This document shows positions 737 to 19,647 of a DNA stretch of 21,127 nt, one piece after another; the stretch's first letter is position 1; the number at the start of each line of letters is the position of its first letter. The stretch is from positions 1,606 through 22,732 of IMG/VR virus record IMGVR_UViG_3300001450_000284; one strand, written 5' to 3'. The position numbers were made by a program, and so were the translations under genes. Origin of the DNA: a virus. The notes beneath the pieces were generated by a model. That model saw only the letters and a program-made list of their open reading frames with translations. It searched no databases and had not been told where the DNA came from.

Positions 737-750
737 TTCCCCTGTTTTTA
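725..750 (+). terminator. Rho-independent terminator of the plus-strand unit
   Basis: CAGGGG (725-730) pairs perfectly with CCCCTG (739-744) around an eight-base loop, and TTTTT (745-749) follows directly. On the plus strand this is a textbook intrinsic terminator ending the mazG transcript. Read on the minus strand the stem has no T-tract after it, so it should not stop the opposing late transcripts efficiently. The T-tract shares bases with the TAA stop (748-750) of the convergent 1230-aa gene. Confidence 0.85.
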
Positions 751-3700
751 TTTGTACGCATCCCTTACTGCCTTACCATACTCAACTAATTTAGATAAAT
801 CTTCTACATCAGCACCGTCTGCTGGCCTACCCTCACGTAGTAAGAACTCCGATGCAGCATTTACACGTACATCAGACGGAAGTCTACGGTAAGCTGTCAT
901 TGCTTTTATGTATACAGGTGCATCTGCTTTTACTTTCTTACCATCTGATAAATTTATTTTGGCGGCTTTAATCTGAGTTGTGATAAGAGGTTTGATACGA
1001 CTGTTTACAAACTCTTGCTCAGTCATTTTCTTTATACCAAACATATTACGTTCTTGTAGCACCTCACTGTCACGATACTCTTCACGAGATTCTTCTTCAT
1101 AAGCTTGTGCTGCAGCTACAATACCGGGGATGATGTCACGCAATTGAGCGTTCTCAAACCTACGTATGCTAGGTACTTTAGATGTACTACCCAATTCAAA
1201 CTCAGTTAAACCAAGACGTTTAATATATTCACCCTCTTCACTATCCTGTGTTCTCAGGGTAAGGCCTAGCCCCACTTTCAATGCTGAACCTACTCTACTT
1301 GATTCCTCTTGGAATAAGCGTTCACGTATAGGTTGTTCATCTTCTGTTATTACACCATCCTCATTTATGTCTAGGTCTACATCTCTTTCATTTACAGTAC
1401 CATCTTTATTTATTCGCACATCCCTTGCCATCAGTCCCCTAGCTTCAAAGGGTCGCTTAATTTCTTTCTCAAATGTAGAACCAAACGCTAGTGTAGGGTC
1501 TTGCGCTACGTCCTTATATGTTTCTTCACGTCTACCTAGCGCACGTTCAGTATCAATTATTTGTGCAAATGGTACAGCCCACGTAGATAGATAGTTACCT
1601 AGCGCACGGCCTACTCGCCTTGCTGCAGCTTCATCTCTAGTCAAATCAGAATCACCTGCAAGTTGTACCACTTCATCTACGATGCTGTTACCTACACCTG
1701 TACGTATGTTAGTGCCTAAGAATGTTTCTGCAAATTCCCTTGCTTTAAAGAAGTCGTCAAACGTACCATTTATTATACGCTTAGTTGCTTCACCTAAGTA
1801 CATCATCTGGCGTACTGGAAACTGTGGTGTAGTATCCATCACTGTACCATCACCTACATTAATCTCTTTATAATCTGCAGGTGCATCATCACTTGTACGA
1901 GCCATATAAGCTGCACCAACAGTACCTATGCCTACTAGATTACGTGAGATACGTTGACGGTCTTTAGCGGTCAGCTTAGTGCCTTTAGGTATTTGCCCCA
2001 TCAGTTTCTTTGTCAAGGGTATAGATGCACCACCTGCATAGTTACCCATTATCTCCATACTATTAAACATAAAGCGTGGGAATGGCATTACAACAGTCAA
2101 ACCATTACGTGTAATGAATGATGTAGCTTCTCTGAACACACCAATGTCAGGCTGCTTTGCATAGGTTACATCTAGTGCATTGTTAGTAGCATCAGCTACC
2201 AGTTCATTGAATGACCTAGCCCCTTTAGGACGTACTGTAGTTGAATCATTCAGCAAGTCTTTAATCTTGCCATCATTCAGCGTGTCAATTAAATCAATCT
2301 TATACTCACGCTTGACTAGGCGTTCTAATTCACCAAGGAATGCACCCCTGCGTACAAGGTATTCTTGCCAGCGGTTAGCACTATTAAGTACACTTACACC
2401 ATCCTCTAGTTCAGATAGTACAGTATCTACACCCTTGCCTACTGTATCAAAATTTCTACTCGCCAAGCGTTCTGCTTCTTGCCTAGCTTTTTTAGCGTTG
2501 TATACTAACTTACCCTTTTTGTTTTTTGAGTAAAATCTTTTATCATCTTTCAACGCCTTTAAGAAAGTCTCTACTTGCTGCTGTCTAGGAATACCACGCC
2601 CTGTAGCAGCCTGTAATTCATTAAGCTGGTTAAACATAAGGTCAAACTGCTTGGATAGTTCAGGTCTGTCTAAGATAAAGTCAACATACTCCTTAGTATC
2701 TAATCTGCTTTCAGGCCCAAACATATACTTCATGTTGGCAAAGCTATCCTTCCAGTTTTCTTTACTGATAAGAGACTTAGCACCAGCAGCAGCCTTACCA
2801 CCTACGCCCTTTGCTTCGCCCATGTTATACAAGGCAGTGTCCATTACATTACCTAGTGAATCCATAGGTGAACGAATGCCAGCAGACTGTAGGTTACGTG
2901 CAGCAGTAGCAAGCTGAGACACCAGACCACCACGGCGTATACCTTCTAAGCGCATGATGTTATTACGTATGTTACCCTGACGTGCCTGTGTAGCTGCCCG
3001 TTGCAAGTCCTGCATCTCATTGAGTGGCCTTGCACGTTTAATCTGAGACAGCTTGTTGAGTACCTTACCTGCCTCTGAGCCAGAGCCTACAACAGTAAGG
3101 ATGTAATCCTCAAAAGATACATTGTACTTGTTTAACGTGTCAATGAGTTCGTCACCAGCTATCAGTTCTTTGTTGATGGTCAGGTCAAGTAGATTATCTA
3201 TTACAGTCTTATCATTATCAAACGCTGTAGGATACTTAGTCTTTAGGTCTGCTGCTGCAGCAACTAGACCATCTAGCTTCTCTGGCTTGAGTATAGGTGC
3301 AGTAAGTGTATCACCAACGCCAGCTAGTTTAGCTGCATCGTCAGCCTCTACTTCACTAAGACCTAGTGCTTTAGCAGTTTGACTTCTGGTATCTTTAAAG
3401 TCTATCTCTTCAGCGGTTTCTTTACCTGCTTTACGAGCTAAGTCATCGTCAACTACACGCACACCATCTACTACAGTTGAGATAGTCTTTCCTGTCTGTT
3501 CTTCAAAGCCTAAGATAAGTTCATTCTTTAAGTCTACGTTCTCTGCCGCAACCTGTTCAGCCCTTGTTGTCTTAGCTGCTATCTCTTCTGCTGTAGCTTC
3601 CTTGGCCTTGTTTATATTCATCTTACGGTCAAGTAGTTTAGCACGGGCTTTCTCACCCTTTGCTTTTAGCTTGGCTGTTTGTTTAGCTTCTCTAAATAGT

Positions 3701-4440
3701 TTTCTTACAGGACGCATAACAGTTGAACCACCCGGAACTGCAGACTCTATCATTTCTAACATCATACCCATATCACCAGCAAACTTCTCACCGCCTACTC
3801 TGTCTTCAAAGGGTACGTCAACTCCGACAGCTTTTAATCCTTTAGTCAAGGCTACTCCAACATTGGCGGTGCTATCAGACACAAATTCCATAGCTACGGC
3901 AAGATTCCTAATGTCTTTACCCGCTGCTTTACCAATCCATTCTACAATAGGCTGGAAGGGTTCTGCTATAGATTCATCTATAAAGTCTTCTGGTATCACA
4001 CTACCAAGATTACTAAACTTCTCTGCTGTTTTTGCAGTACTGGCATAGTTAAACGCAGAGTCAGTTTGTTCTGACACTGTTGGTGTAGGCTCATCAATGG
4101 GTTCTAGCTTTACTCTATCAACTTCTGCATCGCCTGTAGGCACTGAAGGTACATACCTGTACCCTTCAGGCACTTCACCTGTACGCACGAATGTTTCTTC
4201 TGGTGTTTCTACAACAGGCTCATCTACAGAGACATATTCAGCGTCATCGAACACACTTTCAAACTTAGATACTGCTGTATCTTGTGGTGCAGCTTCTTCT
4301 ACGTCCTCGACAGGTACTTCTTCTTCATCATCTTTAAACACATCATCAAACTTAGAAACAGAAGAAGGAGCAGACGCAGGTGTTGATTGCTGTCTCTGCT
4401 CCTCATCGTCAAAGACACTACTAAAATCTAACGATGCCAT
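748..4440 (-). CDS. Large probable internal/ejection virion protein, 1230 aa
   Basis: Last gene of the late unit and the largest in the window. The first ~120 residues are acidic and disordered, and carry three copies of an F-x-x-V-F-x-D motif (F6, F31, F60). Residues about 250-350 are a charged helical region. Near 501-540 is RGGLVSQLATAARNLQSAG, and near 781-792 VVMPFPRFMFN; both resemble, as recalled, segments of large phage proteins thought to be packaged in the head and ejected with DNA. A calcium-loop pair lies at 1009-1035, with DINEDG in the second loop. No lysozyme, protease or polymerase active site was recognised. Position downstream of the tail genes, size and composition fit a T7 gp16-type internal protein, but homology to gp16 is not visible. 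Confidence 0.6.
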   Translation of the reverse strand: MASLDFSSVFDDEEQRQQSTPASAPSSVSKFDDVFKDDEEEVPVEDVEEAAPQDTAVSKFESVFDDAEYVSVDEPVVETPEETFVRTGEVPEGYRYVPSVPTGDAEVDRVKLEPIDEPTPTVSEQTDSAFNYASTAKTAEKFSNLGSVIPEDFIDESIAEPFQPIVEWIGKAAGKDIRNLAVAMEFVSDSTANVGVALTKGLKAVGVDVPFEDRVGGEKFAGDMGMMLEMIESAVPGGSTVMRPVRKLFREAKQTAKLKAKGEKARAKLLDRKMNINKAKEATAEEIAAKTTRAEQVAAENVDLKNELILGFEEQTGKTISTVVDGVRVVDDDLARKAGKETAEEIDFKDTRSQTAKALGLSEVEADDAAKLAGVGDTLTAPILKPEKLDGLVAAAADLKTKYPTAFDNDKTVIDNLLDLTINKELIAGDELIDTLNKYNVSFEDYILTVVGSGSEAGKVLNKLSQIKRARPLNEMQDLQRAATQARQGNIRNNIMRLEGIRRGGLVSQLATAARNLQSAGIRSPMDSLGNVMDTALYNMGEAKGVGGKAAAGAKSLISKENWKDSFANMKYMFGPESRLDTKEYVDFILDRPELSKQFDLMFNQLNELQAATGRGIPRQQQVETFLKALKDDKRFYSKNKKGKLVYNAKKARQEAERLASRNFDTVGKGVDTVLSELEDGVSVLNSANRWQEYLVRRGAFLGELERLVKREYKIDLIDTLNDGKIKDLLNDSTTVRPKGARSFNELVADATNNALDVTYAKQPDIGVFREATSFITRNGLTVVMPFPRFMFNSMEIMGNYAGGASIPLTKKLMGQIPKGTKLTAKDRQRISRNLVGIGTVGAAYMARTSDDAPADYKEINVGDGTVMDTTPQFPVRQMMYLGEATKRIINGTFDDFFKAREFAETFLGTNIRTGVGNSIVDEVVQLAGDSDLTRDEAAARRVGRALGNYLSTWAVPFAQIIDTERALGRREETYKDVAQDPTLAFGSTFEKEIKRPFEARGLMARDVRINKDGTVNERDVDLDINEDGVITEDEQPIRERLFQEESSRVGSALKVGLGLTLRTQDSEEGEYIKRLGLTEFELGSTSKVPSIRRFENAQLRDIIPGIVAAAQAYEEESREEYRDSEVLQERNMFGIKKMTEQEFVNSRIKPLITTQIKAAKINLSDGKKVKADAPVYIKAMTAYRRLPSDVRVNAASEFLLREGRPADGADVEDLSKLVEYGKAVRDAYK

Positions 4441-4442
4441 AT

Positions 4443-6065
4443 TTATCTACCCATATCTTCATCATTTTCTGCTTTTACAAATCTAGTACCTGTCCAAATT
4501 CCATAAAGCGAACCATCCTCTTTAAAAGGTACAACAGCACCTGCCTTAATATTTTCTTTAGCATACTTTGTTAGCTGTTGAGCATTCTGTAATCCTGAAA
4601 TCTTGTTCCACGGTACATAGTTTATTTTGTCAGTAGATTTCTTTTTTGCAACGGCTGTATTGTATTCTGCCTCTTTACCAACAGCAAAGCCATATGCCTT
4701 TTGAATATTGTCTGCACGTAAGGAATCAATGTAGCGTTTAGCTTCGTCTGGCATAGATTTACCTTCAGGTGTAAGTCTTTTTGCAGCAGTGTTTAATGCT
4801 CTATCCATTCCACCATAGTAAGCAGCTTCGTTACCCTCAATAGCGTACTTAACTTTGCCGCCAATATCTTTCTGTGGTACTTTCTCTAACTCAAACTTTC
4901 TAGCGTTTTCTATTATACTATCAAGACTTTGTTTTGCAAACTCAATAGCCGTACCGCCTTGATTCTCTACTTCATTATTATAGGCTATTGCAGCAGCAGT
5001 CATATCAGTCGATAATTGTTTAAAGTCTTTACGTTCAATATCAGTAATATCAGACCTAGCCAGTTGAGTTTCTGCATATATAACTGCTTTTTCAAAGCTG
5101 GCAAATTCAGGATGTCGTTTAGCTTTTGCTGCCTCACGTTTCTGCTCTGCAACGGATAAGCCAGCAGCTTCCATATCAACTACGTGTTTTTCTGCCCTCA
5201 TAATTAATTCTGCTTGTCTACGTAGTGCCTCTGCTTTTGCTCTTTTATTAGCTACTTCTTGTTGTTTTTCAGCGGAAGCAAACTTGTCTTTAGCTAAATC
5301 TGCAGCTTGTGCGTCTAGGTTCATAGCTTGCCTTGTTCTTGTCATTCCAAGGTCAGTAGCATCCATATCTAACCTTACTCTATCTAAGCCCAATTCTTTA
5401 GTTTCTATATTTAAGCCTCTTTCTTCTTGATCCTGTCCATACTTTTCTGCAGCACTAAGCCTTGACCTATCCACAGAACCAAACTTACCTATACTTGATG
5501 CCGGTGCAGTGGCAGGTTTTGCATCAAATCCTTTATTCATTTGTTTCTCAAGCCGTGCAGTATCCGTGTCATCACCATCACGTCCGAAGAACTCGTCTAT
5601 CCTAGATGTACCTACACCATAGGTAGCAGCTTTAAACTGTGTTCCTTTATACTCAGGCATAAGAAGTCCAGCTTCTCCACCTGTGTAAGCAGTATCACCT
5701 TCTTTGAAATCTTTAAAGTCTAAGCTTATGTCATAGCTACCTAACTCATCTGCACGTCCTCTTGCTTTAGTTAAGTAAGAAGTCACACCAGCAACACCAC
5801 CACCTGATTCAGCCAAGCTATCAAAAGCAGCTTTAGCTTTAGTAGCATCTCCATTAAAACCCTCTAATAAAGATCGGTATCCAGCAAGAGCCTCTTCATC
5901 TGTCTTTTCTTTTTTGGCTTCATACTTTTCTCGTTTGGTTGCTTCTCGTTGCATCCAAAACTTTTTAGCAGAGCTAAGTTCATCTTGCCTTCTTTCCATA
6001 GCAGACTGCAAGCCCTTGTCTATACTACTAGCTAATCCTGTTGAAAACCCTGTCCAAAAACTCAT
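4443..6065 (-). CDS. Coiled-coil virion protein, 540 aa, probably internal
   Basis: The short N-terminus (SFWTGFSTGLASSIDKGL) is amphipathic, followed by charged helix to about residue 75. A glycine-containing middle part (90-200) leads into a long predicted coiled coil at 203-320, with heptad spacing in the stretch LGLDRVR, LDMDATD, LGMTRTR. The C-terminus turns to beta-type sequence with GSLYGIWTGTRFVKA and an acidic end. The ATG overlaps the upstream stop as TAATG, with GGAG seven to eight bases before it, and the next gene starts two bases after its stop, so translation is probably coupled. It has no recognised enzyme motif. Context and helical content suggest an internal core or ejection protein partnered with the 1230-aa product; this is inference. 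Confidence 0.6.
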   Translation of the reverse strand: MSFWTGFSTGLASSIDKGLQSAMERRQDELSSAKKFWMQREATKREKYEAKKEKTDEEALAGYRSLLEGFNGDATKAKAAFDSLAESGGGVAGVTSYLTKARGRADELGSYDISLDFKDFKEGDTAYTGGEAGLLMPEYKGTQFKAATYGVGTSRIDEFFGRDGDDTDTARLEKQMNKGFDAKPATAPASSIGKFGSVDRSRLSAAEKYGQDQEERGLNIETKELGLDRVRLDMDATDLGMTRTRQAMNLDAQAADLAKDKFASAEKQQEVANKRAKAEALRRQAELIMRAEKHVVDMEAAGLSVAEQKREAAKAKRHPEFASFEKAVIYAETQLARSDITDIERKDFKQLSTDMTAAAIAYNNEVENQGGTAIEFAKQSLDSIIENARKFELEKVPQKDIGGKVKYAIEGNEAAYYGGMDRALNTAAKRLTPEGKSMPDEAKRYIDSLRADNIQKAYGFAVGKEAEYNTAVAKKKSTDKINYVPWNKISGLQNAQQLTKYAKENIKAGAVVPFKEDGSLYGIWTGTRFVKAENDEDMGR

Positions 6066-6565
6066 TACTTTCTCCGTGCCATTAAGCCTGTTGGCTCTTC
6101 ATTTTCTTCAACTTCTTTATCCTCAGTTTCGGTTACTTCATCTTTGTTTTTTAAGTCTGCTTCATACTCTGTAATAGCTTTAGCCATAGCTGAATCTCGT
6201 AGTATAGGCTTATTAGGATTTTCTAAACCTGTCTCATACTTAACACCTGCACTATCACCAATCATCATAAGCATTTCCATAATCATAGGCAGTACAAGCA
6301 TGCCCACATCTACTGTGTGTATACCTTCCATAACACTAGACAATTGAATAGTATTAGCAATAGATGTAACAGGCACACCAGACTCCAGCACTTCAGTTAG
6401 TTGAACCATGAACTCTTCACTACTCATACGTTCCATGTAGTAGTCAATAGTATCATCTACTGTACTAAATCTAGAAGGAGTTTGCCACGGTCTAGCACCT
6501 AACTCAGCAGTTAAAGACTGCCCCGGAATAGGTGCATCAAAACTAGGTTGATTCGTTATCGCCAT
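6065..6565 (-). CDS. Conserved phage structural protein with FDAPIPGQSL motif
   Basis: A 166-aa protein opening with SFDAPIPGQSLTAELGARPW, a motif recalled from uncharacterised virion proteins of marine phages, including T4-like cyanophages; this is from memory and not checked. Residues 86-107 (starting VDVGMLVLPMIMEMLMM) are hydrophobic enough to be a membrane segment or a buried helix. The last 35 residues are a highly acidic linker ending in a basic GLMARRK. The start overlaps the preceding gene by 23 bases in another frame, and its stop overlaps the next ATG by one base. The acidic tail with a basic end resembles a tether or scaffold-type interaction tail. The biochemical role is unknown. 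Confidence 0.65.
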   Translation of the reverse strand: MAITNQPSFDAPIPGQSLTAELGARPWQTPSRFSTVDDTIDYYMERMSSEEFMVQLTEVLESGVPVTSIANTIQLSSVMEGIHTVDVGMLVLPMIMEMLMMIGDSAGVKYETGLENPNKPILRDSAMAKAITEYEADLKNKDEVTETEDKEVEENEEPTGLMARRK

Positions 6566-6782
6566 TTATTTCATCCCTGTATTTTCTTATGACTTGCATT
6601 TGTTTAGCTACACGAACAGCAGGATTATTGTAGTCGAGACCATCTGTTTCTTTAGACATAGTATTAGACCTAGTTAATAGGCCACCTGTTTTTTCTGGTT
6701 TTTTTACAGTCTTTAAGTTTTCAAATCCTTCAATATCCATACGTTTGTAGGCTTCTCTAGCAGCATTAAATTGTCTGGACAT
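6543..6782 (-). CDS. Small basic unknown protein, 79 aa
   Basis: The ATG at 6780-6782 has GGAG eight bases upstream and overlaps the 3' end of the 976-aa gene by 17 bases; its own 3' end overlaps the next gene by 23 bases. The N-terminal half is helical and charged (FNAAREAYKRM). The middle holds KTGGLLTRSNTM, similar to a glycine-pair element in the 70-aa protein near the other end of the late unit (SKGGLLKKY). The C-terminal half is a second charged helix. No family was recognised. The tight overlaps on both sides and the conserved frame support it as a real gene of the internal-protein block. Confidence 0.6.
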   Translation of the reverse strand: MSRQFNAAREAYKRMDIEGFENLKTVKKPEKTGGLLTRSNTMSKETDGLDYNNPAVRVAKQMQVIRKYRDEINGDNEST

Positions 6783-9696
6783 TATGCTTTCTCCGTTTCT
6801 TGTTTACTACTATATCCATGAATTGTTTTGTGGCCCATTTTAATGGCGGTACTTTAGCAATTAGTTTAGCATAATTTTCACCATGTGTCATGTATAAATT
6901 TTTAAACCAACTAGGAGCATCATATTGTAGCCAAGTACGGAACACAAACCATTCAGCATTTTGTTTGCCATATACTTCACGTGCTACCCAGCAAGCACCA
7001 AATAAATATGCACTGCCTAATGTACCAATTAAACTACCTATTGCATTACCTGCTGCTGATTTACCTGCTGCAGCAGAAGCAGCTTGAGATGTTGCAGCAT
7101 CTAGTTCAGCAATCGCCATAGCACTGTATCTATCCAGTTCACCTTCTGCTGATTCCCATGCCCACTCCATAGTATCAGCATAGAAACTCCACAAATTACT
7201 GTAAGCTTGTTTACTTACATCAAGAACAGCATTCGCATTCAACTCATTAGCACGATTAATTGAAGCCGTATCCGCTGTAGCTATCTGTCTACGCCACTGT
7301 GCATTACTCTGTGCAATCACTAGCTGGTTCTGTGCATTAAACTGATCACGTTGATTGTTTAGTTCTGCGTTAAAACGATTTACTGTATTAGCCTGACCAG
7401 CATTATACTGTGATTGTGCATTAGATTGTGTCGCATTAAACTGAGACACTTGAGAACCAAGATTCTGGAAGAACTGATCTGTTTGGTTTTCACTAGATGC
7501 ATTAAACTGTGCGGCAGCATTTGCTGCAGCTTGATCTGAAAACAAAGACTGTACACGCTGTTGTGCTTTAAACAACTCTGTCTGTTGGTCGTTAGATAAG
7601 TTAGCCATATCCATCTGCAAGAAGTTCTGTGCTTGTTGTACAGAAGCTTGTTGTCTATTGCTTAGGTTCTGGCTATCCATAGCAGCAATTGTTGCAGCAT
7701 TCTGCAGGGTCGTAGCTTGTGCAGTATTAAGATTAGCTAATCCAATAGTTTTCATCAACTCTGAATTATGTAATTGCTCTTGCTGGTCTGCACTAAATGT
7801 TATGTTAGCTGCCTCAGAAAATCTAGCTGCGTTTTGCATAGCTGTTTGTTGTTGTACATTAATCTGTTGACCTTGTAAGGCTGCAGAAAGTTGTGCATTA
7901 GACATATAAGATTGTTGTCTATTAGACAGATTAGCTAAATCTATTTGAAGATTGTTGGCATTATTTACTAGTGCTGTCTGTTGCCTATTATTTAAATTCA
8001 TATTAGAAACTTCAGCAAATCTAGCAGCAGTAACTAAGTTTACCTGTTGTTGATTACTTAAATTCTGTCCTTGGAAAGCTGCCTTTATTTGTGCATTAGC
8101 CAAGAAGGTTTGCTGCATGTTAGACAAGTCTTGTGTCTGTAATGCGAAAGCATTAGTACTGTTCTGTAATGCTACTTGCTGCTCATTAGATAAGTTTTGC
8201 AGTGAAAGACCTTGTTGTGCAGCAGCATTAGTTAGGGACACTTGTTGCCGCCTATTTAAGTTGTTCATATTCATTTGATTGAATGTTTGAGCATCTTGTG
8301 TAGCAATAGGTAGTGAAGACTCCATAGCAGCCTGTAGGATAGCCGCACCTGCCATTGAGCTACCAGCTAGACCCCTTGAGGCCATAGCAGCGTTAGCGGC
8401 CCTTAAAGCCCCTGCTGCCCATACAGGTGTACCATCATCAAACTGCTTCATCAACCCTTCTAGCTGACCCTGTACAGTTCCTAATGCACCTACCTCGCCT
8501 TGAATAGCACTAGCTAATGTGCCATTGTCTACACTAAATGAATTTAGTTTGGCTGCATAAGCTACGGCATCTTCTCTAAGGAACCCACCTGATTGTGCCA
8601 GTTGCGCTTGAGCCATATTAGACTCTTGAATTTGTGCAGCCTGTGGTATTTCATTTACAGATACGGTAGCTTGTTGAGCTATAGCTGGATCAATGCCAGA
8701 AGACTGTGCAATCTGAGCTGCTGGTATAACTTCGTCTTGACCTTTAGCTGCTGCTAACTGGTCTGGTGTTACGTTTAGATCACCAAATCCAACCCCTTGT
8801 TTAAAAGCAGTATCAAACTCTGGTGCGCCGGGTGTAGCTCCGGCAGATAATGAACCTGTTGCTGCTGTTATGCCGCTAGTTGTCCCCGATGCGGCAGCTA
8901 CTTTGTTCATTTCAGTATCTACATCAGTTTCCGTAGTTGTTACAGCAGCTTTATTTGCTGTTCCCGCTGTAATTAATCCAGCTTGATACGTATTTGCAGT
9001 AGCAGTCGGTACTTGTACAGCACCTGCTGAAAAGTCATAGTTAATAGGAACTTCAAACCGGCCACCATCCGGCGTAAATGCAAATTTATTACCTTGTTGC
9101 GGCATTACTGTTTGACGTATTGCGCCGGGGGTAGGATCGTTTTCAAGATACGGGCCTGTCAGTGTACCTGTTCCTGCTGCTATTTTTTGTGCATCTTCTG
9201 TTTTTGTAGCTTTAGAAATTGTTGTGGCACCAATAGGCAGACCGGGTTGATACATTTGTTCTACACTGAACTGTGCTACACCGGGAATTTGGTTTTTGAT
9301 TTCTGCTGTTTTTTCATCGCCTACATTTACACCTTCAGGTAACTGATCACCTTCTTTGTAATATGTAGCGGGAGTTACATTATATTGTGCGGGACTAGCA
9401 CCTGTATACACAGGTGTGGCAGCTTGTGTTGACCCAAAATTACTTACAGTACCTCTGTTTGATACAGGCTGTTCTTCTTCTTCTTTTTTATTATCGGCTA
9501 CACCACCAGTATTAAACCGTGGCACGTATCCACCTTCTGCCATCTTCCGTGCAGCATTCGTATACATATTCATCTGCTGTTGCCGTGCAGGGTCTTGGTC
9601 AACGTACTGCTGAAACTGGTTCATATCACCTTGATAGCCCATAGCCCCTGCAATCTTATTCATTGCTTGAGGTTTAAATCCTTTGAACATCGCCAT
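6766..9696 (-). CDS. Large repeat-containing virion protein with CWVAREVYG C-terminal domain, 976 aa
   Basis: Residues 1-68 form a compact basic module (MAMFKGFKPQAMNKIAG) ending in AEGGYVPRFNTGG, a glycine-pair element common in marine phage virion proteins. Residues 70-470 are low-complexity Ala/Thr/Gln/Pro-rich sequence. Residues 479-720 are eleven exact-length 22-residue repeats (consensus N-L-S-N-x-Q-Q-x-x-L-x-N-A) and 730-806 seven 11-residue repeats starting QFNA. A small-residue hydrophobic stretch (about 880-901) runs into a C-terminal domain at 902-976 beginning CWVAREVYG. That motif is similar to the CFIATAAYG box found at the C-terminus of other proteins. The gene starts one base after the holin-like gene. 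Long helical repeats suggest a fibrous internal or ejected tail component; the function is unproven. Confidence 0.65.
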   Translation of the reverse strand: MAMFKGFKPQAMNKIAGAMGYQGDMNQFQQYVDQDPARQQQMNMYTNAARKMAEGGYVPRFNTGGVADNKKEEEEQPVSNRGTVSNFGSTQAATPVYTGASPAQYNVTPATYYKEGDQLPEGVNVGDEKTAEIKNQIPGVAQFSVEQMYQPGLPIGATTISKATKTEDAQKIAAGTGTLTGPYLENDPTPGAIRQTVMPQQGNKFAFTPDGGRFEVPINYDFSAGAVQVPTATANTYQAGLITAGTANKAAVTTTETDVDTEMNKVAAASGTTSGITAATGSLSAGATPGAPEFDTAFKQGVGFGDLNVTPDQLAAAKGQDEVIPAAQIAQSSGIDPAIAQQATVSVNEIPQAAQIQESNMAQAQLAQSGGFLREDAVAYAAKLNSFSVDNGTLASAIQGEVGALGTVQGQLEGLMKQFDDGTPVWAAGALRAANAAMASRGLAGSSMAGAAILQAAMESSLPIATQDAQTFNQMNMNNLNRRQQVSLTNAAAQQGLSLQNLSNEQQVALQNSTNAFALQTQDLSNMQQTFLANAQIKAAFQGQNLSNQQQVNLVTAARFAEVSNMNLNNRQQTALVNNANNLQIDLANLSNRQQSYMSNAQLSAALQGQQINVQQQTAMQNAARFSEAANITFSADQQEQLHNSELMKTIGLANLNTAQATTLQNAATIAAMDSQNLSNRQQASVQQAQNFLQMDMANLSNDQQTELFKAQQRVQSLFSDQAAANAAAQFNASSENQTDQFFQNLGSQVSQFNATQSNAQSQYNAGQANTVNRFNAELNNQRDQFNAQNQLVIAQSNAQWRRQIATADTASINRANELNANAVLDVSKQAYSNLWSFYADTMEWAWESAEGELDRYSAMAIAELDAATSQAASAAAGKSAAGNAIGSLIGTLGSAYLFGACWVAREVYGKQNAEWFVFRTWLQYDAPSWFKNLYMTHGENYAKLIAKVPPLKWATKQFMDIVVNKKRRKHNVQTI
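7279..7509 (-). repeat. Seven tandem 33-bp (11-residue) repeats
   Basis: Coding repeat in the 976-aa protein, residues 730-806. Units begin QFNA, QFFQ, QFNA, QYNA, RFNA, QFNA and QSNA, each exactly 11 residues with no insertions. An 11-residue period is the hendecad pattern of long, nearly straight helices. The units are diverged at base level, so this is not a recent expansion. Confidence 0.85.
7537..8262 (-). repeat. Eleven tandem 66-bp (22-residue) repeats
   Basis: Coding repeat in the 976-aa protein, residues 479-720. Every unit is exactly 22 residues, usually opening N-L-(S/N)-N-x-Q-Q. Units 3-5 and 6-8 match each other better than their direct neighbours: AQIKAAFQGQ with AQLSAALQGQ, AARFAEVSNM with AARFSEAANI. 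This gives a super-period of 66 residues (198 bp) and suggests growth by duplication of three-unit blocks. Confidence 0.9.
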
Positions 9697-11094: not shown

Positions 11095-12198
11095 TTAATT
11101 GCCTGATAAGCCTGTTAGATAACGTCTAGCTAAAGTCAAGTCTCCAAAATCTGTAGCATTGCCGGGGGTAGATATAGTTACGTATGCCATAACATTAACA
11201 GGAGTGTTGCCGCCACCACCAAATATTGCTCTAGTGACATTTGCACACGCTGCCATATTATACTGCACTGCTGTTAAATTTCCAAAATCCGTGGCATTAC
11301 CAGTTGTAGCTATAGTTACATAGTCTATTACATCACTTACAGCAGAAGAAGAATAACCACCTCCAAATAATGCTCTAGTGCCGTTTGAACACCCTGCTGG
11401 GGCTGAACCTCTACCTACGGTTAAATCACCAAAGTCTGTAGCATTACCAGTAGTAGCAATTGTTATATAGTCAATTTCGTTTTTAGGGCCGGGATTTCCA
11501 CCAGCAAATAAACCTCTTGTAGTGGAACTAGCACCTCCTAATTGTTTTCTAGCTACGGTAAGATCACCAAAGTCTTGAGAATTTCCCGGAGTGGCTATAG
11601 TTATATAATCTATTGTATTTACTGTTGCTGATGCTTGGCCTAGTGCTATAGCGGCACGGCTTCCATTAGACACAGCAGCACAGCCTCTAGCAGTGGCACT
11701 TAAATCTCCAAAATCCGTACCGTTTCCTGTGTTGGCTATAGTAATATATTCTATAATGTTATAAAAAGTAGTATTAGATTGGCTATGTCCACCCGCAAGT
11801 ATACCTCTACTTCCGTTAGAACAACCCGCTAAAAAAGCCCTAGCTTGTGTAAGGTTTCCAAAATCTGTAGCATTACCTGTGGTAGTTATATCTATATAAT
11901 CTATATTATTTTGTTCTGTGTTATTAACATCACCGCCAGCAAATATACCTCTATTTCCTAGTATAGGTGGTGGTGGTTCTGTTACAGCCGTAGTATACCA
12001 CAGATCATTAGCATAGATTTTAAATACATCATCAGAAGTGTCAAACCACAAAGCTCCATCACAAGGGTAAGTAGGCTCTGTGGATTGTGCGTAGTACTCT
12101 TTTTTGAGTGCGCCGCTGCCTGCACCTACTTTAGCGTTGTAGGTGAAGTCTACAGTGCTACCGTCATTGGTAATTGTGTCTACTTTTATTGTACTCAT
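11095..12198 (-). CDS. Kelch-like propeller fibre, paralogue 3 of 3, 367 aa
   Basis: Third in transcription order of three tandem paralogues. Residues 1-75 are the shared attachment-type module: KVDTITNDGS near the start and GALWFDT about residue 50, then a Pro-rich linker (EPPPP). The rest is six repeats of 45-51 residues. Each has R-G/A-hydrophobic-F-x-G-G, then I-D-Y-I-T-I-A-T, then GNATDFG(D/N)L. The order GG, Tyr, FG-x-L, Arg matches the Kelch blade layout, so a six-bladed beta-propeller is inferred. The protein ends LSGN, lacking the Shine-Dalgarno-bearing ending of its two siblings, in line with the gap and promoter that follow. Probable receptor-binding tail fibre. Confidence 0.65.
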   Translation of the reverse strand: MSTIKVDTITNDGSTVDFTYNAKVGAGSGALKKEYYAQSTEPTYPCDGALWFDTSDDVFKIYANDLWYTTAVTEPPPPILGNRGIFAGGDVNNTEQNNIDYIDITTTGNATDFGNLTQARAFLAGCSNGSRGILAGGHSQSNTTFYNIIEYITIANTGNGTDFGDLSATARGCAAVSNGSRAAIALGQASATVNTIDYITIATPGNSQDFGDLTVARKQLGGASSTTRGLFAGGNPGPKNEIDYITIATTGNATDFGDLTVGRGSAPAGCSNGTRALFGGGYSSSAVSDVIDYVTIATTGNATDFGNLTAVQYNMAACANVTRAIFGGGGNTPVNVMAYVTISTPGNATDFGDLTLARRYLTGLSGN

Positions 12199-12201
12199 AA
12201 A

Positions 12202-13293
12202 TTATTCTCCTGAACATGAGGCGGGACCACCCCGTGCTGCTGTTAAGTCACCAAAATCCGTACTATTACCAGTCGTGGCTATCGTTACATACTCAATTAT
12301 ATTTTTAAACCCGCCGAAACTGCCACCGCCAAATACAGCTTTGATGCCATCTGAACATGATGCACTCTCGCTAATTGTCGCCCCAAGATTACCAAAACTT
12401 GTAGAATTGCCGGGGGTAGCAATGGTAACATACTCTATGCCATAGTAGTTAGCTAAGGCAGAAAACAAACCTCTTGTACGATTTGAACACCCCGTTACGT
12501 AGTCTCTACCTTGAGTAAGGTTTCCAAAATCTATGGCATTACCAAGCGTTGCTATTGTTACATAATCAATAGTGACATCAGATGTTGGATTACCACCAGC
12601 AAAAACACCGTATGTACCATCTGAACAAGAACCAGTGCTTGATCTTTCAGTCGTTAAATCACCAAAGTCTTGAGCGTTACCTGTTGTTGCTATTGTAATG
12701 TAATCAATTGCAGCTTTTGGGCTTCTGGCACTTCCAGCAAACAAACCTTTTGTGCCATCCGAACACCCGCTACCTAATTGATACGTTACTTTTGTAAGAT
12801 CACCAAAATCAGTAGCATTACCTGCGCTGGCTATTGTTACATAGTCTATGTTATTTGTGTCGTTTCCTGTAGTACCACCAGCAAAAACACCTCTAGTTTT
12901 ATTTGAACAAGCACCCCCCCTGTATCGTGCTAATGTTAAATCACCAAAGTCTGTAGCATTGCCGGGGGTAGATATAGTAATATAGTCTATTGTATTGACA
13001 GCGGCATACGAAGTATTCAGACCACCAAAAAAAAGACCACGTGAACCTACATACGGTATAGGTGGTGCTGTCACATTAAGTTTCCTAAATCTAGTATTTA
13101 TATACTGATGTAAGTCTGTACCATTCCACCAGAAAGCACCATTCTTAGGGCTAGTAGGTTCTGATGTACCTGTGTAGTACTCCGAAATTGCATGGCTTGC
13201 CGTAATATCTGCCCCAGCTATATTTAAACCCTGTGAGAAAGAAGGAGACCCGTTTGAGGTATTTTCCATACTTGATACTTTAAATTCGCTCAT
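12202..13293 (-). CDS. Kelch-like propeller fibre, paralogue 2 of 3, 363 aa
   Basis: Same layout as its neighbours: an N-terminal module (KVSSMENTSNG, then EPTSPKNGAFWWNG), a short linker (TAPPIP), and six GG / IDYVTIAT / GNATDFG repeats. The N-terminal module is the most diverged of the three; GAFWWNG replaces the usual G-A-x-W-x-D-T. All six repeats end in a Cys-Ser pair (CSN, CSD, CSGE), more regularly than in the other two. Repeat 5 is short and has lost its glycine pair (LFSALANYYG). The ATG follows the previous stop by three bases, with AGGAG supplied by that gene's last codons. Probable alternative or co-assembled receptor-binding protein. Confidence 0.65.
   Translation of the reverse strand: MSEFKVSSMENTSNGSPSFSQGLNIAGADITASHAISEYYTGTSEPTSPKNGAFWWNGTDLHQYINTRFRKLNVTAPPIPYVGSRGLFFGGLNTSYAAVNTIDYITISTPGNATDFGDLTLARYRGGACSNKTRGVFAGGTTGNDTNNIDYVTIASAGNATDFGDLTKVTYQLGSGCSDGTKGLFAGSARSPKAAIDYITIATTGNAQDFGDLTTERSSTGSCSDGTYGVFAGGNPTSDVTIDYVTIATLGNAIDFGNLTQGRDYVTGCSNRTRGLFSALANYYGIEYVTIATPGNSTSFGNLGATISESASCSDGIKAVFGGGSFGGFKNIIEYVTIATTGNSTDFGDLTAARGGPASCSGE
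12206..12211 (-). promoter_or_regulatory. Shine-Dalgarno site inside the CSGE ending of paralogue 2
   Basis: AGGAGA lies in the codons for Ser-Gly-Glu at the end of the 363-aa gene, seven bases before the ATG of the 367-aa gene. It fixes that start and forces coupling of the two. Confidence 0.75.
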
Positions 13294-13296
13294 TAT

Positions 13297-14427
13297 TTAA
13301 TCTCCTGAACATCCAGAAACTGCTTGAGTTGCAGCAGTTAAATCGCCAAAGTCTTGAGCATTACCCGGTGTAGATATAGTTACGTATTGAATAACATTAC
13401 TGCCTGCTGAAGCTGCTGTATCATAACCTCCTGCAAAAACGCCTCTTGTAGCATTAGCACAAGCTGCAAGAAGATAAGGAGAAGTAGTTAAGTCTCCAAA
13501 GTCTGTAGCATTACCCGGTGTAGATATGGTTATATATTGTATTACGTTGTTATTATTTTGAGAATTGCCGCCAAATAAACCTCTACTTCCATCACCACAA
13601 CCTGCACTTGCTTGCATAGTACTAAGCAGATCACCGAAGTCTGTTGAGTTTCCTGTGGTAGAAATAGTAACATACTCTATTGAATTTACAGCACCAGACG
13701 AAGAGTCTCCCATGTTAAATACAGCCCTACTTTTACTAGCGGTAGACGCAGAATTTTGTCCTACGATAGCTGCATTTCCAAAATCAGTAGCATTTCCAGT
13801 AGTAGCTATTGTAATATATTCAATAGTATTAACTTTACTACTTTCATTGCCGCCGATAATTAATCCCCTAACATCATTAGACGCACAAGAAAGTCTGTGT
13901 CTATTTGCAGTAAGATTACCGAAGTCTGTAGCATTTCCAGTACTAGCAATTGTAACATAATCTATTACATTTGACTGGCCCCCGGCTGCTATAGTTTCAC
14001 CACCTGCCCAAATACCTCTACTTCCACTAGAACAAGAACCTGATCGTGTTCTAGCTGCAGTTAAATCACCAAAGTCTGTAGCGTTACCCGTAGTTGGTAT
14101 AGCTATATAACTTATTACATTTACATCCGTACCGCTTCCACCTGTATTACCGCCACCAAATAATCCTCTATTACCTATACCTACTTCCAGCAAATTAGTA
14201 TACGTTAATTCGTAAAACTCACTGTTAATATAAACATACGCTTTGTCATCATCTGTATCATACCACACTGCGCCATTAGCAGGACTACTTGGTTCTGCAC
14301 TCTGTGCGTAATGCTCTTGTTTATTTACAGAAGCTAAAGCGACACCATCAATTGTAACACCATCTGGTATGTTTGGCGCACCTGATCCAGCTAAGTTAGT
14401 AACTGTATCTACTTTAATCTTACCCAT
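13297..14427 (-). CDS. Kelch-like propeller fibre, paralogue 1 of 3, 376 aa
   Basis: First of the three propeller genes. The N-terminus carries KVDTVTNLAGSG and, near residue 45, EPSSPANGAVWYDTDDD, followed by YVYINSEFYEL. This module also heads many marine phage fibre-like proteins, as recalled, and probably attaches the propeller to the tail. Six repeats follow; the third lacks the LT-x-A-R element (GNAAIVGQN) and the fourth has GD in place of GG. The start ATG directly abuts the stop of the 1027-aa fibre (TAAATG) with only a weak GGTGG upstream, so translation probably depends on coupling to that gene. It ends CSGD, whose codons form the next gene's ribosome-binding site. Confidence 0.65.
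   Translation of the reverse strand: MGKIKVDTVTNLAGSGAPNIPDGVTIDGVALASVNKQEHYAQSAEPSSPANGAVWYDTDDDKAYVYINSEFYELTYTNLLEVGIGNRGLFGGGNTGGSGTDVNVISYIAIPTTGNATDFGDLTAARTRSGSCSSGSRGIWAGGETIAAGGQSNVIDYVTIASTGNATDFGNLTANRHRLSCASNDVRGLIIGGNESSKVNTIEYITIATTGNATDFGNAAIVGQNSASTASKSRAVFNMGDSSSGAVNSIEYVTISTTGNSTDFGDLLSTMQASAGCGDGSRGLFGGNSQNNNNVIQYITISTPGNATDFGDLTTSPYLLAACANATRGVFAGGYDTAASAGSNVIQYVTISTPGNAQDFGDLTAATQAVSGCSGD
13301..13306 (-). promoter_or_regulatory. Shine-Dalgarno site inside the CSGD ending of paralogue 1
   Basis: AGGAGA lies in the Ser-Gly-Asp codons of the 376-aa gene, seven to eight bases before the ATG of the 363-aa gene. It is the same arrangement as at the next junction. Confidence 0.75.
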
Positions 14428-17400
14428 TTATACCACCGCCCATCTTGATCCTGAAGGTACTGTAACTGTAACACCTGATGCTATGCTTACAGGACCAGCA
14501 CTTACTGCATTTTTATTACTTGTAATTGTGTAGTTAGTAGAAACTGTTTGACCATTCTCGTAAAATATATCGTTTACAGCACCTGCCGCTACCTCAGCCC
14601 ATGTTAAACCACCAGTATTACCCGACTGTGCCGAAAGAAAATAACCATTTACTGCACTATTAGAAACTTTTAAGTTAGCTTCATCAACAATGTTATCGGC
14701 AATAACAGTCGCACCATCTGCTGTACTGGTGACTTCACCTGAATGATTTGGATGAACATAGTTATTTGCTTCAGCCCAAGTTAAACCACCAGTATTACCA
14801 GATTGTGCTGAAAGAAAATAGCCATTACTAGGACTGTTACTAACTTTTAGGTTGGCCTCATCTACTATATTGTTGGCAATAACAGTTGCACCATCTGATG
14901 ATGAAGTAACCTCACCTGTGTGATTAGGGTGGGTGTAACTACTTGTAGCAGCAAAAGATAATACACCTGAACCGTTTGTAGTTAGTACTTGTCCATTAGA
15001 ACCGTCAGTCGCAGGTAAAACAAACGATGGATTACCACTAAATGCGCTATGTGCTGGAGCCTTTAATTCAAGGTAGTGTGCATTATTTGACTCACAATAG
15101 AACCGTATGGCTGCAACACTGCCTGTGCCTGTGCGAATACTTACAAGACCATCTTGTAGGGTTACACCACCACTAGAACCATTCCCACCAAATGTTGCAC
15201 TACTGCTGTTGCTTAATGCAACTGTACCTGTAGCATTAGGGAAGGTAATTGTACGGTCAGCCGTAGGGTTTGTAAAAGCTACAGTAGTATCATTGCCATC
15301 TGCACCAGAACCTTCTACAGTAAAGCCTGAGTCGTTAAGATGCATACCTGTTATAATAGGACTTGTTATTGTTTTATTAGTAAGTGTTTTAGTTGTAGCT
15401 GAGAAGTATGTGTCTAATAAGTCTACATCACGATAACCGATATTGTTACCATTGTCAAATACTAATAGGGCATCATTATTAGCTATTGCGGTACTTGTGT
15501 CTACACTTACAGCAGAAAAGTCAGCTACAGTGTTTAACTCTGCACCTGTAGCATTAAGACCTGTTACGTTATTAGATGACGCAGCTACACTATCTACATA
15601 AGCCTTTACAGATTGTTGTGTTGGAATAAGTACTGCACTGTTAGAAGACATGTTATCTTCATCTACAAATGCGGTAGCAGTTATAGTGCCATCCGTAATA
15701 CTACCAAAGGATACCGTGCCACCAGTTATAGTGCCTGTAGTTGTAATAGCACTTGAACCATTGTCAATAGCTCCAAAGCCGCTTGTAATACTACCACTAT
15801 TAAGTGCGCCTACTGTTGTAGCAGCAGTAGTCACAAGGTTAGGCATAGCTGTTATTTCATCATCAAAGTATGCAGCTAGGTCTGTTACAGCAACCTGTAC
15901 CATAGTGCCGCTATCATTCATTACAACACGGTCAGCGTCAGCTACGGTTGTTGATGTTGCGGATGTACCACCATCTATAATGTTTAGTTCAGCAGGTGTA
16001 GCTGTAATCGCTGTATTACTTGCTGCAGCTAATACAGGAACAGTACCCGACTGATTAGGAAGATTGATTGTACGGTCTGCTGTTGGGTCTACAATAGTTA
16101 GAGTAGTCTCATGGTCATCTGGTGTAGCACCCTCAAATACAATCGCATTCTGTGCATTAATAGTTACTGTATCTACAACAGTCTGTGTACCTGATACTGT
16201 CAAGTTACCTGAAACAATGAGGTCTTGCGATACAGTTACGTTACCACCAGCAGCAATAGACACTGCATCAGTATCACTAGCGGAACCTATATTACCACCG
16301 TCACCGATAATAATATTACCACCTGTAATGTTACCAGTAGTTGTGATTGTGCTAGAGCCGGTATTTATTGTACCAAAACCACTTGTGATGCTACCACTGT
16401 TTAATGCACCGACAGCAGTAACACTACTAAGAATACCTAAGTTACCACCTAAATACGTAGTTAAATTAGTCATGGCAACTTGCTTCATAGTGCCATTGTC
16501 GTTGACTACGACTCTATCTGCATCTACTAGAGTAATAGCAGAAGCTGAGGTATCGCCATCTACAATATTTAGTTCAGCAGCAGTACTAGTAACTGCAGTA
16601 CTAGCAATAGAAAGTGCATCCGTTTCTAGCGTACCATCAATATCAACGTCACCAGATACGTCTAAAGTAGCAGCATCTAGTTCGCCAGTAATTGTTATGT
16701 TTCTTGCGCCAGTAAAATCTTTATTGCCATCTACAACTATTGCTTTAGAAGCTGCAACAGTTCCTGCTGTTACGCCATCTATAGTTTCTAATTCGGCTTC
16801 ATTAATATCAGCAGAACCAATTACAAAACTTGTACCTGTAATTGTTGTGCCAGTTATAGCTGCTGCACTAGCTCCACCAATAACAGCACCATCAATAGAA
16901 CCGCCATTAATATCTGCCGTGTCAGCTACAAGAGCGTCAATGTTAGCAGTACCGTCAATGTACAGATTACGCCACTCAGAGCCTACAGCACCTAAGTCGT
17001 ATGTATCGTCAGCAGAAGGTAATAGAGGAGAGGCTACATCTGCAGTAATTGTAACTGTGTCACTTGCAGCATTGCCAAGTGTAGTGTTTCCATTTACTGT
17101 AAGATTTCCTGTAAGGGTAGAGTTAGTGTCTACTTGCAATACATCTATTGTGGCTGTACCATCAAGATATAAATCTTTAAACTGCAGGCTAGACGTACCT
17201 AAGTCAATATCATTGTTAGTGACAGGAACTACTGCACCGTCTTGAATACGTATCTGCTCTACAGCAGAGGTAGACACTTGTACAAAGACACCGACACGAT
17301 TGTTTGTTGTGTCAATTGCTACTTTGTTTAGTGCGTCTGAATCAGCAATTAAAGGTACATATGCACCCTCTGCTGTAGTACCATCGTGCTTATGCCCTGT

Positions 17401-17514: not shown

Positions 17515-19647
17515 TTATCTCCTATCCCCTGTTCCATACAATATTGATACAGCCTGTATGGTATGGCTGGGGCTTGTACTGTTGGTAACATAAGATACTG
17601 AAATAGAATCACCTGAGCCACTTATGTTAGTACTACGAATTGGTGTAGGGTTTCCATCATAGATGTCTGTGTCATCGTAGATAGTTGAACTTGCATCAAA
17701 TAAAGAAGCAGCACCTGCGGTAGTTAATTCAACGTTTGCAGGTGTAGAAATTTCTGCATCACCAAAATTATATTCTAAACCTACGGCTATTGTTGATGCA
17801 CCCTCTGATTTAAGAAAGGTTTTAACTCTGTAAAATACTTTACGTAATTCTGGGTCTTGCATAAAGTAAAAGGGAGTTTGATAAACGCTTAATATATTGC
17901 TCCCGCCAAACGAACTACCTTCTTCTTGTTTGAATACTTTACCAGTAGTATCTCCATGAAGAACGAACTCAAACTGTCCTACATATCCACTGGCTACTGC
18001 TGTTGCTTCAATCCCTACAAGCTGACTATATTCAAATGTAGACTGCGCTGAAGAACTTTTACGTATAGCTGCTAGCAAAGATAAAGAAGTGTTAGCCTCA
18101 AAGAATAATCTAAACTGGGATTTTCTACGAATTACTAAAGCTTTTAATTTAGTTACGTCTTCGTTTTCCGTATAGTTTTCAAATGTTTTTTGTATCTCAC
18201 GTGATACTGTTTCAAGTTCAACGTCACCAATCCTAGAGGTTCCTGAAATAGGTCTAATGCCATCTGGACCAAGAAAAATAATGTCTCCACCAAACTCTAC
18301 TACAGTGTCGGGAGCAACACAACCCAAGTCATTAGTGACATTTTCTACACTAAAGTTAGAGTAATTATCCCCAACAATACGTTTAATTTGATTCTGACCA
18401 AATACATATAGTTGATTACGAAAAGACTTTAACTGTGTTATTGTAAAACCTATGTTAATAACACCTGCTCCATTTGCAGGATCAAAGTCTGTGTCTACGT
18501 TAGGAGAAGAAAAGTAAATATTAAAAGGTTCGTCAGGGTCTCCAGCTAACCAGAGGTGATTTGAAAATGCACTAGAAAATTTAGGATTGTTAGGTGCGTT
18601 AGTATGTGTAATTTGTATGTATGCAGTTCCATTATACTTAGCTGCTGGATTTATACCATCCGTTATTAACAATATTTCTTCAGACCAATTATACCTTTCA
18701 AAACGTATAATGTCAACCCCCGTCATAGTAGGGCTAGCGGGTCTATGTTGTCCTGCACCTGAACCTACCGTAATGGCTGCAGCAGTTCCAGCACTTACGG
18801 CTATTTGTGTAATTGTGTTAAAGTATCCAGTACTATTTACTGTGCTATTATTTGGCCCTGCTACAACTTCTACTAAAGCTACCCCTGAAGAGTTTGTCCC
18901 TGTTATAGTAAAATTTTTACCCGACTCGTTTCCTGTACCTGTAATAGTAACTTGTCTAGGTTGTTGTGCTGCAGAAGTTGTAAAGTTTACACTGCCACTG
19001 TCTGCTAAAGCACCGTTTATAGTTAGATTACCAGAACCGCCCGGAGTTTGAGATGCACATACACCATCAGGATCGTTAGCAACTAAGTCAGTATTTACAG
19101 TAGTCCAACCTATAACAGTAGGGGTACTTGCTACAGTGCCTGCTGCACTAGATGTACCGCCTGTGATTACGTTAGCTGCAGCAAAAATATTGGTAGGTAG
19201 TCTGCCAAAGTTTAGTACAATAGCATTTGCTGCTATAGATATTACTGTGCCGGTTGCAACGACTGCAGTAGCGTCAGATGAACTAACTACACCTGTAACC
19301 GTTTCTCCTACACTAAAACTAGAACCTTGTCCTGATCCTAAAGCCACAGTGTAGTAATGATTGTAGAAATGCAGATACTTATTTCCTGAAGATGGTGTTC
19401 TACAACCTAGTATGCCTTGATTTATTTCGCCATTTACTGCTAGACCTAGAACCTTACCTGTGCCGGGTAATGTTTCATAAGAGTTTGCATAACCGCTTAT
19501 ACGTCTATAGCCACCCTCAAGAGAAGGCTCCATATTAATTAAGCGTATGGCACTGCCAGATAAAGCATTACTTTGAGTAAGAGGGTCAACATTAGTGACA
19601 AGCCCTCCTGAACAAACAGAGACAAAGGTTTGTAGATTGTCTGCCAT
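17515..19647 (-). CDS. T7 gp12-like tail nozzle protein with inserted Ig-like domains, 710 aa
   Basis: Tail tube/nozzle protein forming the distal part of the short tail. The N-terminal signature GGLVTNVDPLTQ (14-25) and LEGGYRRISGY (43-53) is typical of this class in marine podoviruses. Propeller-type sequence resumes near 310 with VDIIRFERYN and continues through LKSFRNQLYVFG and GDIIFLGPDGIRPISG (454-469). Between them are two inserts: 107-175, with paired GETVTG/ITGGTSSAAGT elements, and 203-300, an Ig-like stretch (PRQVTITGTGNESGKNFTI). The latter kind of domain recurs in marine phage tail proteins. It follows the adaptor gene closely, as in T7 (gp11-gp12). Its last codons carry the fibre gene's Shine-Dalgarno site. 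Confidence 0.75.
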   Translation of the reverse strand: MADNLQTFVSVCSGGLVTNVDPLTQSNALSGSAIRLINMEPSLEGGYRRISGYANSYETLPGTGKVLGLAVNGEINQGILGCRTPSSGNKYLHFYNHYYTVALGSGQGSSFSVGETVTGVVSSSDATAVVATGTVISIAANAIVLNFGRLPTNIFAAANVITGGTSSAAGTVASTPTVIGWTTVNTDLVANDPDGVCASQTPGGSGNLTINGALADSGSVNFTTSAAQQPRQVTITGTGNESGKNFTITGTNSSGVALVEVVAGPNNSTVNSTGYFNTITQIAVSAGTAAAITVGSGAGQHRPASPTMTGVDIIRFERYNWSEEILLITDGINPAAKYNGTAYIQITHTNAPNNPKFSSAFSNHLWLAGDPDEPFNIYFSSPNVDTDFDPANGAGVINIGFTITQLKSFRNQLYVFGQNQIKRIVGDNYSNFSVENVTNDLGCVAPDTVVEFGGDIIFLGPDGIRPISGTSRIGDVELETVSREIQKTFENYTENEDVTKLKALVIRRKSQFRLFFEANTSLSLLAAIRKSSSAQSTFEYSQLVGIEATAVASGYVGQFEFVLHGDTTGKVFKQEEGSSFGGSNILSVYQTPFYFMQDPELRKVFYRVKTFLKSEGASTIAVGLEYNFGDAEISTPANVELTTAGAASLFDASSTIYDDTDIYDGNPTPIRSTNISGSGDSISVSYVTNSTSPSHTIQAVSILYGTGDRR

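Follow-up and report, generated by a model that had tools for sequence, protein, structure and literature searches.

In phage phiX174, ten copies of the H protein form a 170-angstrom-long tube through which DNA passes (PMC7354561). The tube is alpha-helical and glutamine-rich. Of the 23 residues that point inward, 18 are N, Q or R, and the helix consists of three hendecads (11-residue units), a transition and eleven heptads. For the T7-type ejection proteins gp14, gp15 and gp16, PMC8954989 gives sizes of 181-240, 431-982 and 609-1337 amino acids (aa), and phage SU10 (Kuravirus) releases five types of ejection proteins (PMC9509320). Here, we analyzed a window of 21,127 bases, which is part of the 24,671-base virus record IMGVR_UViG_3300001450_000284 (positions 1,606 to 22,732). 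All genes given with coordinates below lie on its minus strand. A gene of 976 aa (6766-9696), recognized from the list of open reading frames (ORFs) and from relatives, encodes a protein with a long repeat array, which we call the array protein. By analogy, it may be an ejected virion protein that forms an amide-lined helical DNA tube and works like the phiX174 H tube; we give this reading a probability of roughly 45%. Both "virion protein" and "ejected" are deduced from gene order and analogy.

The likeness to H lies in a long alpha-helical domain in hendecad register, which here is helical by prediction. In the hendecads of H, too, the amide and charged maxima are roughly opposite (344 and 147 degrees). 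However, phiX174 is a single-stranded DNA microvirus, whereas the present phages are double-stranded DNA podoviruses with about 11 to 97 hendecads between the anchors defined below; an analogy alone is claimed, and no homology. The likeness to the T7 ejectosome lies in a late structural-region module with three downstream genes of near sizes, and in a podovirus gene set. On the other hand, the first of these genes encodes 166 aa, below the range of gp14, and the array protein, for which T7 has no counterpart, would come on top as a fourth member. As for SU10, the tail adaptor of the window belongs to the SU10 adaptor family, but the 27 phage records with a relative of the array protein include no SU10-type record.

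Array length and register in the family

The initial annotation described the region 7279-8262 (residues 479-806) as eleven units of 22 residues followed, after nine residues, by an 11-residue array. Our self-comparison bore out the eleven consecutive 22-residue units (residues 479-720, 7537-8262), with no insertion. Self-identity was 0.30-0.37 at lags 22, 44, 66 and 88, and the shuffle maxima over lags (n = 500) had a mean of 0.17 and a second highest value of 0.21. The 11-residue array was recovered as well, with a lag-11 identity of 0.348 in residues 730-806; this barely exceeds 0.346, the second highest value among the maxima of 500 shuffles. The nine-residue spacer (721-729) did not hold. 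Residues 721-731 and 732-742 share the array register, so the supposed gap belongs to the array, which contains eight 11-residue units after the 22-residue ones (residues 721-808, 7273-7536); residues 479-808 are thus 30 unbroken 11-residue units.

It had also been proposed that units 3-5 and 6-8 match as blocks and that the array grew in three-unit steps. The block match was found for two of the three unit pairs (3/6, 59% identity; 4/7, 41%) and was absent for the third (5/8, 32%), the mean of all pairs being 33%. When the order of units was permuted, lag 3 was enriched in the DNA (p = 0.002) and not clearly in the protein (p = 0.07; six lags each, uncorrected), and the step between relatives is often 110 residues rather than 66. 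Both the 66-residue super-period and a 66-residue growth unit are weak, and we did not retain the latter.

The relatives were then used to examine the register. tblastn with the array protein gave matches in 27 of 50,697 phage records, and queries with two other members (L154 and L129) again gave 27 records. Because HMO-2011 and CHOED are each present twice, these records represent 25 phages: 11 roseophages, four pelagiphages, HMO-2011, three Rhizobium phages, phiM6, CHOED, two Aeromonas phages, Slicky01 and one uncultured genome. The host phages are short-tailed and many are marine. More loci came from IMG/VR and from a genome collection, and the two locus lists hold the best 80 of 222 and the best 80 of 350. 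All 13 loci from the genome collection lie on contigs of metagenome-assembled genomes (MAGs) and are probably phage contigs binned with bacteria. Four of the loci (L146-L149) come from one pair of phage contigs, with equal lengths and contig numbers, that recurs in two MAGs from different phyla (Flavobacteriales and Neomarinimicrobiota), a duplication that is probably a binning artefact.

Array length was measured as the distance between two conserved anchors that flank the array, the motif PIA (residues 463-465, 8302-8310) and W801 (7294-7296), which stands inside the 11-residue units. In the first set, both anchors were present in 120 loci, and 119 of the 120 distances equalled 8 mod 11. The enlarged set comprised 275 loci; 274 had the family ORF and 253 of these had both anchors, the other 21 being dropped for a missing anchor or a truncated ORF. 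The W anchor in this set was W-R, or a looser W pattern where W-R is absent (e.g., CRP-603); these distances replace counts made with a loose W pattern throughout, which often caught a second W, 35 residues downstream. As measured, 245 of the 253 distances equalled 8 mod 11. Seven further loci, with a distance of 274, had been measured to a still later W; re-anchored by the rule of the first set they give 228, the value used in the profile and tree work, and the stricter anchor of the first set gave no locus at 274. The sole locus truly off 8 mod 11 is L097, by one residue close to the W anchor. This shift may be a real indel or a sequencing error.

Eighteen distances were found (140, 151, 162, 173, 184, 217, 228, 250, 283, 316, 338, 426, 536, 569, 646, 756, 866 and 1086 residues), a nearly eightfold range. 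The difference in unit number between relatives, which the initial annotation had put forward as a test, is therefore present, and apart from the single residue in L097 no relative lacked the fixed spacing. The loci are redundant; they comprise 213 unique segments and, at 70% identity, 43-47 clusters, a number that varies with the input order. Fourteen of the 25 phages were fetched; both anchors were found in 12 of them, and all 12 distances equalled 8 mod 11. Across the 43 clusters, the common phase was the best one in all 1100 windows of 55 residues, the profile being built from the same sequences. Family-wide, residue and phase shared 0.62 bit of information at period 11 and no more than 0.08 bit at those of the periods 3-33 that are not multiples of 11.

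A step of 110 residues (five 22-mers) is frequent, as from 228 to 338 and in the series 316, 426, 536, 646, 756, 866 and 1086. Some long members (L184, L185 and L188) have super-periods of 55, 110 and 220 residues nested on the 11-residue register. The window (338) and its close relative L008 (228) differ by 110 residues, with nozzle and adaptor proteins that are 91% and 97% identical. Relative to the common 228 form (L006-L008), the net extra 110 residues can be drawn as units 1-5 (7933-8262), but their exact place is not fixed, since the DNA of the window and L008 diverges right after PIA. Thus, recombination rather than simple insertion is possible. Parsimony on a core tree of the 43 clusters gave 24 length changes, against a mean of 29.7 and a minimum of 26 for shuffled lengths; the tree is rough, with about 160 residues per row, and one change may be the single residue of L097. 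Because unit-wise duplication alone could preserve the register, the quanta show a conserved register and not by themselves selection. However, other indels between the anchors are nearly absent at about 30% identity, which would argue for selection.

Predicted helix and its faces

The array protein had no match at E ≤ 0.1 in Pfam, PHROGs or NCBIfam, and 59 relatives gave just scattered matches to the curated families, one or two members each. In the PDB, the single sequence found nothing and a profile found one weak match, to ribosomal bL9c (E 0.27); no T7 chain was among the PDB sequence matches. Literature searches of open-licence papers, through listings and the openings of abstracts, found no paper describing the protein. 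Judged by sequence, it belongs to an undescribed family of podovirus proteins. One relative, L135 (MW202701), carries the annotation "huntingtin", probably because of its glutamine-rich sequence.

We predicted structures with AlphaFold2. For the window protein (85 sequences), the model contains helices at residues 447-499, 504-543, 548-608, 615-629, 636-650, 658-697, 702-824 and 829-880 and no strand, with a mean predicted local distance difference test score (pLDDT) of 64 and a predicted template modelling score (pTM) of 0.29. Within the array, pLDDT was 60-86, except for 47-53 at residues 601-660, and the breaks, which may be kinks or turns, coincide with unit borders. For a short relative of 517 residues (L129), helices were predicted at 240-294, 297-370 and 374-467, again with no strand (mean pLDDT 63.9, pTM 0.33); its array had pLDDT 51-90, with 83-90 over residues 331-460. 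Both models and the register support the 11-residue helix of the initial annotation, and no beta fold was predicted for residues 479-806. A continuous helix of about 48 nm, also proposed there, agrees with the models in being helical, while the straight rod is unproven, the monomer model being broken at several unit borders and of low confidence at 601-660.

The arrays are polar, weakly charged and almost free of Pro and Gly. Across the 43 clusters they contain 17% Q, 16% A and 13% N, with two prolines and no cysteine in 13,992 residues. A curli-type beta-solenoid was considered for the N/Q-rich 22-residue repeats and set aside in view of the two helical models and the near absence of Pro and Gly. 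When the residues AVILMF were placed on an 11/3 helix, the family-wide one-face component was near zero (|F3| 0.08) and the two-face component was strong (|F5| 1.23). The hydrophobic residues are accordingly placed by this wheel in two opposite predicted seams throughout the family. The charged maximum (42 degrees) and the amide maximum (220 degrees) fall on opposite faces of the same wheel.

A fold search of BFVD gave six matches at E ≤ 0.001, with TM-scores of at most 0.18 and none of tested function. Two carry domain-type names (DUF4214 and intramolecular chaperone), and the length of one, W8FPS3 (460 aa), suggests that it is probably the protein of CHOED itself.

The array protein gene and its neighbours

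The array is preceded by three regions. A small helical N-terminal domain (residues 1-60, 9517-9696), seen in an alignment consensus (A1) and modelled with pLDDT 62-91 over residues 11-60, is common to the HMO-2011 clade and was not seen in the compared pelagiphage, phiM6, CHOED and L129-type proteins. It is followed by a low-complexity linker rich in A, G, T and Q (residues 61-400, 8497-9516), which has mostly low model confidence and varies in length among relatives. A conserved helical lead-in (residues 405-470, 8287-8484), supported by the model and by the invariant residues P424, G442 and A465 of a second alignment (A2), contains the PIA anchor. After the array, a Gly-rich hydrophobic segment (residues 886-904, 6985-7041) is the sole Kyte-Doolittle peak above 1.2 in the protein (19-residue mean 1.44), and G887 is nearly invariant; its hydropathy suggests a possible membrane-inserting helix. 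An optional helical C-terminal domain containing Cys (residues 905-976, 6769-6984) has pLDDT 88-95 over most of its length, and its motif was found in 16 of 253 relatives.

Three genes follow the array gene. The first encodes a partner of 166 aa with one hydrophobic segment (6065-6565). It was found in 113 of 134 loci, many of which are cut short, and in every one of 26 records examined, of which 25 are viral and one is a MAG; among the 50,697 phage records, it occurs in exactly the 27 that contain the array protein. The second, of 540 aa (4443-6065), diverges fast, with a blastp homologue in 8 of the 134 loci, and the last, of 1230 aa (748-4440), has one in 37. No convincing family match was found for the 540 and 1230 aa proteins. 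In relatives, the array gene is followed by zero to four small or other genes and then by counterparts of these three, the downstream sizes being 164, 502 and 1128 aa in HMO-2011 and 173, 504 and 817 aa in CHOED.

The podovirus structural genes of the window comprise adaptor, nozzle-like and tail fibre genes, three related repeat proteins, the array protein and the three genes above. The SU10-type tail adaptor (19650-20366) was recognized by PF24175 (E 1.7e-22) and phrog_10775 (E 2.5e-41). The adjoining gene (17515-19647) matches phrog_5107 (E 2.6e-48), which PHROGs labels "amidase"; from its position beside the adaptor, as in other members, it is a probable tail nozzle protein. The three tandem related proteins (367, 363 and 376 aa; 11095-14427) are rich in a motif around NATDFGDL. 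The one of them that was scanned against PHROGs (11095-12198) matches phrog_19111, of unknown function. A 177-base tandem repeat of about two copies lies at 14594-14925, within the tail fibre gene.

Possible functions of the array protein

If the array protein works like the H tube, it would be packaged in the head and ejected together with its operon partners. Several copies would align side by side, joined along their two hydrophobic seams, and so form an alpha-helical tube whose lumen face bears amide side chains and whose other face bears charged ones; the tube would shield or guide the DNA leaving the virion. Since neighbouring helices would share a single register over the full length of the array, it would tolerate no indels other than whole hendecads (three helical turns), and this may explain the quantised lengths. 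The proposal draws on the module position, the partner sizes near those of gp14-gp15-gp16, the Gly-rich C-terminal segment, the bifacial helices and the H-tube precedent, none of which is direct evidence of function.

Several results weigh against this tube, and length is the strongest objection. With a helix rise of 1.5 angstrom per residue, a straight array of 1086 residues would measure about 160 nm and greatly exceed an envelope, so a straight trans-envelope span cannot apply to every member. The face pattern is also less simple than two seams: family-wide |F4| (1.31) is as strong as |F5| and has no simple helical meaning, the window's hydropathy peak is at period 2.75 and not 3.67, and in the window array alone the charged one-face signal is just at the 99% shuffle level, with the amide signal below it. 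In H itself the two-seam pattern is unclear (VILMFWY |F3| 1.37, |F5| 1.13, |F4| 1.99; 33 residues). The pTM of both monomer models is just 0.29-0.33, and a PDB fold search with the L129 model gave nothing at E ≤ 0.001. With single T7 sequences, whose reach is limited, hhalign gave the array protein a probability of 0.2-0.4% against gp14, gp15 and gp16, and a comparison of the 540 and 1230 aa neighbours with gp15 and gp16, limited in the same way, found no relation; the T7 proteins are thus unsupported as homologues. Literature searches found no virion mass spectrometry of the array protein, and none for MQM1 or CHOED.

An external fibre, whisker or tail needle is an unlikely alternative. It would be a parallel dimeric or trimeric coiled coil outside the virion, its reach set by array length. 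The array gene follows tail-fibre-like genes in the window and in HMO-2011, unit number varies freely, and 160 nm fits a long fibre better than a conduit. However, a single hydrophobic stripe would be expected of a coil with two or three strands, and the near-zero one-face component is at odds with this. The models lack strands and hence a beta tip, the C-terminal part is Gly-rich and hydrophobic, and in CRP-3, CRP-738, phiM6 and RHph_N3_19 the first, second or third gene upstream of the array gene encodes a lysozyme or endolysin.

It is rather improbable, to a slightly greater degree, that the array protein stays in or near the head, where it would form a rod for organising the core stack or spooling DNA and would be free to drift in length by whole units. 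Folded or coiled packing would suit the very long arrays better than a straight span, the polar and weakly charged composition agrees with it, and a putative spooling of DNA around an ejectosome is described for phage PhiM1 (PMC11440229). Against this, no DNA-binding family was matched in the curated family searches, and the Gly-rich segment and the module position point, weakly, to ejection.

A ruler, in which array length sets the length of the tail, the conduit or the envelope span, was part of the initial annotation, and we consider it improbable. The variation of length in exact quanta between conserved ends speaks for it. In siphophages, tape measure proteins are long, helical and repeated, with a length that varies in units, and the array protein is like them in these respects; the difference is that the isolates with microscopy here have no long tail. 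Among 26 records searched, a nozzle-type family was found in 20 and an adaptor-type family in 21, with arrays of 151-1086 including 426, 756, 866 and 1086. Since the unmatched records are mostly fragments, little can be concluded from their lack of a match. CHOED (array 173) has no evident tail (PMC4110762). Seven RCA phages have short tails (PMC6918029), and their HMO-2011-type members are CRP-1 to CRP-3, with arrays of 228 in CRP-1 and 162 in CRP-3. The tail-length ruler thus conflicts with podovirus adaptor and nozzle genes alongside arrays of 151-1086, with short-tailed or apparently tailless isolates at 162, 173 and 228, and with the different arrays of the window and L008 despite their similar nozzle and adaptor. 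On the contig with the 866-residue array (G003), no tail tube was recognized among the 10 of 18 listed ORFs that were scanned, the middle of the contig being unread; the ten include terminase, portal, major head protein, adaptor and a nozzle-type protein. None of the 10 PHROGs matched by the 59 members (E ≤ 0.1) is named tape measure. On these grounds, a tape measure protein was rejected. These objections concern a tail ruler as opposed to a conduit ruler. Two ORFs of a long-array podovirus contig (L278:6946-8229 and L279:8089-9366) show weak local matches to tape-measure PHROG families.

Apolipoproteins and alpha-synuclein-type helices typically carry 11- and 22-residue repeats on lipid, but an amphipathic membrane helix of this type is very improbable here, as the array is amide-rich and has no single hydrophobic face (|F3| 0.08 against |F5| 1.23).

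The literature searched held no description of DNA delivery by these phages. Returning to the helical DNA tube, a wider claim would be that a lineage of double-stranded DNA tailed phages independently evolved an H-tube-like, amide-lined helical conduit as a fourth ejection protein, with a length that changes solely by quanta of 11 residues, often by 110 at once, and that ranges from about 20 nm to about 160 nm, more than any envelope needs. We regard this claim as doubtful. If it is true, the longest conduits would have to do more than simply span the periplasm; they might, for instance, carry DNA far into the cytoplasm or lie coiled in the head. The quantised, nearly eightfold length range with conserved ends is a natural series of length variants, and such a series allows a direct test of the role of length and of why whole hendecads alone are tolerated.

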